Shown: positions 59,788 through 61,720 of the stretch, in pieces | How the letters are laid out: every line of letters starts with the position of its first letter | How positions within the stretch are numbered: position 1 is the first letter of the stretch | Origin: Chitinophaga pendula | Lineage (GTDB): Bacteria > Bacteroidota > Bacteroidia > Chitinophagales > Chitinophagaceae | Length of the DNA: 64,000 bases | Reading direction: 5' to 3' | Assembly: GCF_020386615.1 (NCBI RefSeq) | Contig: NZ_CP077769.1 | Span: 6,125,501-6,189,500 of the forward strand | Translations under genes and position numbers: made by a program | Notes under the pieces: generated by a model | Told to the model about the DNA's origin: nothing | Seen by the model: only the letters and a program-made list of their open reading frames with translations | Databases searched by the model: none

Positions 59788-60012
59788 TTACTTCGAATCT
59801 CTTGAATTATATCTGTCCCTGCCTTCCGTTTGACTTCCGGCAGCTTTATTAACTGATTGTTCCTCACGCAGCCTTTGCCATTGCTGCATCTCATACTTGT
59901 TCAAAAAGCAAACTTTAAATACCTCGGACTCAGCTCCCTCCACAGGTACCTGGTATAAACCCAGCTGCGCCAAGTGCCGCTGTAAGCTATTGATATGCTC
60001 AGAAATCGTCAT
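59788..60012 (-). CDS. Small protein of unknown function (74 aa), partner of the Cys-rich peptide gene
   Basis: I do not recognise this family. The 74-residue product is soluble and has no signal or membrane segment. It begins MTISEHINSLQRHLAQLGLY, has a middle FKVCFLNKYEMQQWQRLREEQ likely to be helical, and ends in a polar Arg/Asp-rich tail. It lies 55 bases downstream of the 31-codon cysteine-rich gene on the same strand and upstream of a terminator, so the two probably share a transcript. Its role, for example as an immunity, leader-binding or binding partner, is not known. Confidence 0.5.
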   Translation of the reverse strand: MTISEHINSLQRHLAQLGLYQVPVEGAESEVFKVCFLNKYEMQQWQRLREEQSVNKAAGSQTEGRDRYNSRDSK

Positions 60013-60067: not shown

Positions 60068-60163
60068 TTAACAACAGTACGTACAACACGACTCACAGCA
60101 GGTGGAGGCTGCGTGCAACGCGCGTGGCGTTTTAGAGGGCTTTATGAAAGACTGTTTTTGCAT
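60068..60163 (-). CDS. Cysteine-rich 31-residue peptide with three Cys-Cys pairs
   Basis: This gene is too short for ordinary gene finding. The ATG at 60161-60163 opens a 31-codon frame ending in TAA at 60068-60070. The first 19 residues (MQKQSFIKPSKTPRALHAA) are basic and free of Cys. The last part is STCCESCCTYCC, with Cys-Cys pairs at 22-23, 26-27 and 30-31, a regular CCxx repeat. A good promoter lies about 55 bases upstream, a second small gene 55 bases downstream, and a strong minus-strand terminator after it. Plausible roles are a ribosomally made, modified peptide precursor (Ser/Thr and Cys are close together), a metal-binding peptide, or a toxin. No modification genes are in the window. 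Confidence 0.5.
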   Translation of the reverse strand: MQKQSFIKPSKTPRALHAASTCCESCCTYCC

Positions 60164-60216
60164 ATCATGTAGTATAATGGGTGGCTACCGTAGCGCCTTA
60201 CCGCCTTATTACCCTA

Positions 60217-60246
60217 CAAATATAGTAGGAAATATAGACTAACAAA
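60217..60246 (-). promoter_or_regulatory. Promoter of the cysteine-rich peptide operon
   Basis: On the minus strand a TTTG (60246-60243), an 18-base spacer and TATATTTG (60224-60217) match the Bacteroidota -33/-7 pattern closely. Transcription would begin near 60210, giving a leader of about 47 bases before the peptide ATG at 60163. Confidence 0.65.
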
Positions 60247-60703: not shown

Positions 60704-61720
60704 ATGAAAACATTAGCCCAATGCGCTACTGAGCGCATTTTGATCATTGACGGTGCCATGGGCACCATGATACAACGTTACAAACTGGAAGAAGAAGATT
60801 ACCGTGGCGATCGCTTCAAAGATCACCACAGTGATGTAAAAGGTAACAATGACCTCCTTTGCCTTACACAGCCGCAGATCGTAGAAGCCATACATCGTGA
60901 ATACCTGGAAGCTGGGGCGGATATTATCGAAACCAATACTTTCAGCAGCACATCTATCGCCCAGGCAGATTATGACATGCAACACCTGGCCTATGAGCTC
61001 AACGTCGCTGCCGCGCAGATCGCCAAAAAAGCGACTACAGATTATACCAGCCGCAACCCGGACAAACCCCGTTTTGTAGCAGGCGCTATCGGCCCACTCA
61101 ATAAAACCCTGTCACTTTCTCCTGATGTAAATAACCCCGGCTTCAGGTCCGTTACCTTCGACGAAGTGGTAGAAGCCTATTATGAACAGATCAAAGGGCT
61201 ATATGACGGCGGTGCTGATATCCTGCTGATTGAGACTATTTTCGATACCCTCAACTGTAAGGCAGCTATTTATGCCATCAAGAAATTCTTCAGTGATACC
61301 CATACCCCTCAGCTCCCGATCATGATCTCCGGTACTATTACCGATGCTTCAGGCCGGACCCTCAGTGGCCAGACACTGGAAGCCTTCTATATATCCGTCA
61401 TGCATGCCAAACCCTTCTCCATAGGTCTTAACTGTGCCCTTGGTGGAGAACAGATGCGTCCGCACGTGGAAGAGCTCTCCCGCATCGCAAGCTGCTATGT
61501 AAGCTGCTATCCGAACGCCGGCTTACCGAATGCCTTCGGGGAATATGACGAAGAACCGGAAGACACCGCCCATATCATCGAAGACTTCGCCAAAGAAGGA
61601 TTTGTTAATATTGTGGGCGGATGCTGCGGAACCACCCCTGATCACATCAGGCATATCGCACAACATGTTAGTTCACTGTCACCTCGCCCACTGCCTATCT
61701 TAGCTGAGGCCGTGGTGTAA
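60704..61720 (+). CDS. metH: Methionine synthase, homocysteine-binding subunit (split MetH N-terminal part)
   Basis: The 338-residue protein corresponds to the first module of cobalamin-dependent MetH, a homocysteine-binding TIM barrel that activates homocysteine by zinc. It starts [33 protein letters not shown]. The zinc cysteines are seen in [11 protein letters not shown] and [11 protein letters not shown]. In most bacteria this module is fused to the pterin and cobalamin modules in one chain of about 1,230 residues; here the frame ends at 61720 and a separate gene with the remaining modules starts 50 bases later. The two proteins must cooperate. Confidence 0.92.

Follow-up and report, generated by a model that had tools for sequence, protein, structure and literature searches.

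A frame of only 31 codons, ending in a run of cysteine codons and followed by a gene for a 74-residue protein, raises the question whether so small a frame is a gene at all and, if it is, whether it serves through its peptide or through its translation. The frame is located in Chitinophaga pendula, in the stretch of 64,000 nucleotides that was analysed here (the window). The first-pass annotation of this DNA had described an unannotated 31-codon gene with three Cys-Cys pairs, composed of a Cys-free front part and a Cys-rich end and followed by a 74-residue gene, and all of these features are present. In the translation, the six cysteines making up the three pairs lie within the final 10 residues, and 55 nt separate the stop codon from the start of the 74-residue frame. 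The locus is organized as follows:

60163-60068, minus strand: Cys-codon leader ORF of 31 codons, MQKQSFIKPSKTPRALHAASTCCESCCTYCC* (translation of the frame)
60071..60100, minus strand: cluster of Cys codons, 6 of the last 10 codons, the proposed sensor of charged tRNA-Cys
59788..60012, minus strand: gene for the 74-residue protein, restricted to the genus (frame and conservation)
59750-59729, minus strand: hairpin with a T-run resembling an intrinsic terminator, between the 74-residue gene and the convergent recR frame
60704..61720, plus strand: divergent frame for the N-terminal module of, presumably, metH (methionine synthase)

Our results indicate that the 31-codon frame is very probably a real gene and that it represents a kind of short gene kept across the soil-bacterium genus Chitinophaga. 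We propose, with a probability of about 0.6, that it is a cis-acting leader, whose cysteine codons sense charged tRNA-Cys and which gates the 74-residue gene under sulfur control.

The gene behind the leader and its neighbours

Similarity searches with the leader itself returned little. A protein search with the 31-mer among 59 relatives gave nothing below an E-value of 0.01 except the leader itself (the next best match had 0.0177), Pfam contained no match, and no NCBIfam model was found at E<=10. NCBIfam was also searched with four related leaders: three matched nothing and the fourth matched an unrelated kinase model at E 0.09, and no curated leader-peptide model of this collection was matched by the window leader or by any of these four. 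Taken alone, the protein search with the 31-mer would suggest no conservation; the counterparts described below came to light by their position.

The 74-residue protein marks this position. It was found in 28 of the 59 relatives, all of them Chitinophaga, and a 19-row profile recovered it from 78 of 79 Chitinophaga genomes. Eleven of 394 genomes of the family contain a match: ten of them are Chitinophaga, and the other match has E 0.0097. A database search returned 113 proteins, with Chitinophaga as every organism named among the listed matches, and a contig scan added 37 loci (labelled Chitinophaga in 36 cases and, in a single metagenome bin, Flavihumibacter), which are not part of the leader counts. 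In the closest relative of the window locus, the 74-residue protein (P0073) shows 81% identity. Neither Pfam nor NCBIfam gave a match above cut-off, PDB gave none, no PHROG was found at E<=0.1 for the protein of the window, and one scan of viral contigs detected no relative. PG_binding_1 is matched weakly by 4 of 19 family members (best E 0.006), and the AlphaFold model (pLDDT 74, pTM 0.29) is too weak for a fold search. It is not among the known cysteine genes. A few source records of the family carry cell-wall names.

What we take to be metH, recognized by the motif DGAMGTM, is a conserved neighbour, divergent in all 59 loci whose flank extends over 600 nt or more, and a motif of the presumed recR is convergent in 37 of 45 loci; both gene names were assigned from the sequences. 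A T-run terminator had been reported past the 74-residue gene, and it corresponds to the hairpin listed above, the region over which all four sub-threshold Rfam matches fall.

Cysteine codons and coding constraint across Chitinophaga

Counterparts were sought as ATG frames, 10 codons or longer, in the 220 nt that precede the 74-residue gene at 78 Chitinophaga loci, one per genome (one of the 79 genomes has no match to the 74-residue protein). Duplicate genomes (L068, L074, L078, L084, L087, L091, L094), repeat genomes (L121, L123, L124, L126, L128, L129) and a weak match outside the genus (L131) were left out of the counts. At least two cysteines within the last 15 codons are present at 69 of the 78 loci, the window locus included, compared to a fraction of 0.087 of the shuffled sequences. 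At least three were found at 63 loci, compared to 1.2% of 7,800 dinucleotide shuffles, at least four at 47 (0.1% of shuffles) and at least five at 23 (0.000 of shuffles); the window leader has six. The distance from leader stop to gene start has a median of 56 nt and a range of 43-104 nt (69 loci). The arrangement is that of a polycysteine leader, a short ORF upstream of a gene with Cys codons clustered near its stop.

In 64 distinct leaders, cysteine makes up 33.1% of the last 12 residues, a 28-fold enrichment, compared to 0.6% elsewhere in the leaders and a background of 1.2% in large ORFs of the window. The leaders are 11-37 residues long, with N-termini unlike between clades, and they end in such tails as ACCPSGRCCC, CYNQHCCC, CTPCSCRCCN, HHRAAAGCCYMCR and CQCCYN. 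Altogether 43 different Cys patterns occur among the 64 distinct leaders, so that conservation extends to the clustering ahead of the stop but not to the spacing, as is expected if the codons matter rather than a folded peptide. Among 69 leaders, CC is present in 57, CXXC in 26 and CCxxCC in two. The CCxx regularity, to which the first reading of the locus had drawn attention, does exist in the window leader, but it is not general: the triple CCxxCCxxCC is unique to this one of the 69 leaders.

A Cys-rich ATG frame is absent from eight of the 78 loci (L015, L017, L028, L095, L096, L114, L197, L198), and the frame of L195 contains a single cysteine. All eight loci still keep both the promoter palindrome described below and the 74-residue gene, and seven of them (L015, L017, L095, L096, L197, L114 and L028) present natural experiments on the role of the leader. 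The Cys-rich end of L198, whose genome is 65% complete, lies in a different reading frame from the start. In L189 and L190, the stop codon directly follows GCCYM, ahead of the last Cys codon of their relatives.

Constraint on the frame was evaluated in 53 of 70 loci with a candidate frame, falling into three clades of 29, 12 and 12 leaders; the window leader has no close relative among the loci compared and belongs to none of them, so the constraint is known from relatives only. Pooled pN/pS values in the true frame are 0.43, 0.52 and 0.40, compared to 0.68/0.88, 1.03/0.86 and 1.16/1.41 in the two shifted frames (same clade order), and, as the pools contain non-independent pairs, these values serve as an indicator rather than a test. 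A preliminary calculation on a smaller set of loci, made without the shifted-frame control, had yielded 0.45, 0.51 and 0.32. By this comparison of true and shifted frames, the leaders of the 53 relatives are conserved as coding frames, and in the DNA alignment of clade B, gaps within the coding part occur in threes. The first-pass annotation had named lack of conservation and of codon bias as the outcome speaking against the gene; what was found is Cys clustering kept at the same position and coding constraint in three clades.

Clade C leaders (L186-L188, L191, L130, L194) share a strongly conserved core around HHRAAAGCCYMC at their end. This core is more conserved than the other leaders and may have an added role as a nascent peptide. 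A search for the core motif in 394 family genomes gave six matches, one of which lies elsewhere in a Chitinophaga genome, and none of the six represents a short leader that precedes a sulfur gene.

Promoter palindrome, sulfur genes and RNA structure

The control elements in front of the leader, and a regulator located elsewhere in the genome, are the following:

60246-60243 (TTTG) and 60224-60217 (-7 box TATATTTG), minus strand: presumed promoter of the Bacteroidota type
60214..60228, minus strand: palindrome CTACTATATTTGTAG, which surrounds the -7 box and is the proposed binding site of an Rrf2 repressor responsive to sulfur
L202 939-1358, plus strand, and L183 740-1423, plus strand: CymR-like Rrf2 regulator directly upstream of a cysH-cysD-cysN-like operon

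A promoter had been placed about 55 bases upstream of the frame, and the -7-type box was indeed found 53 nt before the leader ATG. We take it, together with TTTG, to be a promoter on the strength of the Bacteroidota consensus; a scan for promoters of the sigma-70 type, which does not cover the Bacteroidota type, listed none at the leader. Judged from the -7 box, the 5' UTR would comprise about 47 nt.

The palindrome may connect this promoter with sulfur metabolism. Exactly two copies of CTACTATATTTGTAG are present in the 7.66-Mb genome, one at the window locus and the other 143 nt before a frame that, by its sequence, we take to be metY (O-acetylhomoserine sulfhydrylase). With up to two mismatches it was found at all 78 loci (53 of them exact), compared to 0.09% of 2,340 shuffles. 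In 70 genomes of the genus, 67 exact matches occur in 54 genomes, compared to three for the reversed pattern; by inspection, 48 of the 67 are at the leader locus (35 inspected by sequence, 13 placed by coordinates beside a match to the 74-residue protein), 16 precede metY, mostly as AGTCTAC-N7-GTAGACT, and three are elsewhere. Palindrome and -7 consensus overlap, so some of the match reflects an ordinary promoter; the CTAC/GTAG arms lie outside the similarity to the -7 box.

A cysH-cysD-cysN-like operon in the same genome (cysD identified by search, cysH and cysN recognized from sequence) is preceded by a gene for a 139-residue Rrf2 regulator (PF02082, E 6.8e-37), for which CymR is the best equivalog model with 79.8 bits, against a cut-off of 195. 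This CymR-like protein may thus regulate sulfur assimilation. A less strict version of the palindrome, AGTCTATCTTTTTTATAGAGT, picked by eye, precedes the operon as well, and we infer that the regulator encoded beside cysH may bind the palindrome at the leader promoter.

Outside the genus, such an operator is only suggested, since few sulfur genes lie behind palindromes found family-wide. An extended palindrome with at most one mismatch gave 14 matches in 12 of 244 family genomes, compared to four for reversed controls; of the 14, one lies before a cysH-cysD-like pair (L178) and one before the metY of the genus (L172), and the remaining matches have no recognisable sulfur gene behind them. In L177, L180 and L181, from other genera, GTCTAC-N7-GTAGAC, exact or with one mismatch, precedes frames with no recognised sulfur tie. 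The regions upstream of metH at 24 loci of other genera (L230 with only 67 nt; L236-L238 not included) contain no palindrome, the best having four mismatches, and Cys-rich ATG frames occur, without system, in four of the 24.

Folding of the leader RNA is supported best in clade B and not at the window locus, where the leader folds no better than its shuffles (z +0.67). In the 12 sequences of clade B, a three-hairpin structure, drawn from the same related sequences on which it was scored, has 95.5% of its cells paired, compared to 25-57% in slid versions. Changes on both sides affect four pairs and 13 cells (2 and 0 of 500 shuffles as high); one of the five measures, the number of further pair types, shows no excess over its control (14 compared to 13.7, with 319 of 500 shuffles as high). 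The two-sided changes are located in the 5' UTR hairpin and in the hairpin whose 3' arm consists of the Cys codons. The hairpin directly past the leader stop is invariant and thus gives no evidence either way. The U-run that follows it is short and interrupted, so termination is not assured in this clade, and no clear terminator was found between leader and 74-residue gene. Consensus folds of the full UTR gave z -4.3 for clade B (11 loci) and z -3.1 for clade C (5 loci); the consensus fold of clade A is very weak (-3.35 kcal/mol with 26 loci, column-shuffled mean -0.06), and the 3' part of clade C reaches only -2.25 kcal/mol with 12 loci. These mixed folds, together with none at the window locus, imply that the coupling structure is either clade-specific or not captured.

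A possible gauge of cysteine

In the mechanism that we propose, the leader would be translated from the same transcript that carries the 74-residue gene. Under a shortage of charged tRNA-Cys, the ribosome would slow on the Cys codons just ahead of the stop and, by covering or rearranging the spacer of about 55 nt (through fold, reinitiation or termination), would allow the 74-residue gene to be expressed. When cysteine is plentiful, the ribosome would finish and depart, and expression would remain low. A CymR-like Rrf2 repressor bound at the palindrome overlapping the promoter may add sulfur control; the unit would then share with metY, and perhaps with cysH-cysD-cysN, a regulon for sulfur starvation. 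In a bolder and distinctly tentative version, repressor and leader would together form a two-level cysteine gauge new to Bacteroidota, jointly controlling the 74-residue protein as a sulfur-starvation effector whose target may be MetH or sulfur flux; each clade would have rebuilt the coupling RNA on its own.

By analogy, the closest known system appears to be the polycysteine leaders of mycobacteria. Cys-rich leaders are described there upstream of cysA2, nirA and Rv0485 (PMC4633059), and the title of Canestrari 2020, as cited in PMC13236596 and PMC9094748, presents polycysteine leaders as leaderless, cysteine-responsive attenuators. Both systems share a short ORF with a terminal cluster of Cys codons, its position upstream of another gene and conservation within a genus, and the cysteine sensing through ribosome progress proposed for the mycobacterial leaders is the same as we propose for Chitinophaga. 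The Chitinophaga leader differs in belonging to another phylum and in a putative Rrf2 operator that overlaps its promoter. Its mRNA probably has a 5' UTR, while that of mycobacteria is leaderless according to the title. Furthermore, the Chitinophaga leader precedes a genus-specific orphan, whose possible tie to sulfur consists of the palindrome shared with metY and the divergent metH. Within Bacteroidota, the portion of PMC9723704 that was examined reports clues to leader-peptide attenuation upstream of amino-acid operons of Flavobacterium psychrophilum, a member of the same phylum, and mentions no cysteine leader. Titles and abstract openings of the open-licence papers searched revealed none in Bacteroidota either, and neither "cysteine" nor "Bacteroid" occurs in a uORF review (PMC11550727).

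The nascent peptide itself could be the sensor, with its Cys-rich tail binding a metal or reacting with a thiol or redox signal and thereby altering stalling. The precedent is CruR (DUF2946) of Bordetella, a copper-responsive upstream ORF with functional cysteines that controls the gene behind it; according to PMC9426467, it is a predicted exported protein of 145 residues with conserved CXXC and RAPP at fixed spacing. The Chitinophaga leader resembles CruR as a Cys-bearing upstream ORF before another gene, and the tail with at least two cysteines at 69 of 78 loci would suit such a sensor. However, CruR keeps both motifs and their spacing, whereas CXXC is present in only 26 of the 69 leaders and RAPP, RAGP or RGPP, the arrest motif, in none, and the link to sulfur makes cysteine a likelier signal than a metal. 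We consider sensing by the peptide improbable. A stand-alone small Cys-rich protein, metal-binding or redox-active and working with the 74-residue protein, appears equally improbable. In three clades the frame appears to be under purifying selection, which, like the well-kept clade C core, would agree with it, but the N-termini differ between clades, the length ranges over 11-37 residues, the Cys patterns show none of the invariant spacing of a metal-binding Cys peptide (43 patterns in 64 distinct leaders), and the frame is missing at eight of 78 loci without loss of its supposed partner gene.

A precursor of a modified peptide (RiPP) or a toxin, suggested by six cysteines among Ser/Thr and a basic front half, is very unlikely: the varied Cys patterns and N-termini contain no conserved core or leader motif across species, the immediate neighbours are metH, the 74-residue gene and recR, and the frame occurs at 69 of 78 loci of the genus behind a palindrome common to metY. 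Modified peptide, metal-binding peptide and toxin were the readings offered by the first-pass annotation, and they are not supported; a regulatory leader, absent from that list, explains the unkept Cys spacing, the eight frame-less loci that retain palindrome and gene, and the neighbours metH and recR better than they do. Least probable of all is an open frame that arose by chance within a structured 5' UTR whose RNA rather than peptide is conserved, as the clade B hairpins with two-sided changes that include Cys codons might suggest, against which stand pN/pS of 0.40-0.52 in the true frame compared to 0.68-1.41 in shifted frames, 33% cysteine in the leader tails and clade B coding gaps in threes.

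If the regulatory leader is the right reading, cysteine-codon leaders occur outside mycobacteria, in a phylum whose amino-acid leaders are little studied, and here they would guard an orphan gene instead of a biosynthetic operon. A 31-codon frame missed by protein search is still recognisable through its position and codon composition. The leader would further provide a handle on the function of a nearly universal Chitinophaga protein, and would define a testable sulfur regulon composed of the palindrome, the Rrf2 regulator, metY and cysH.
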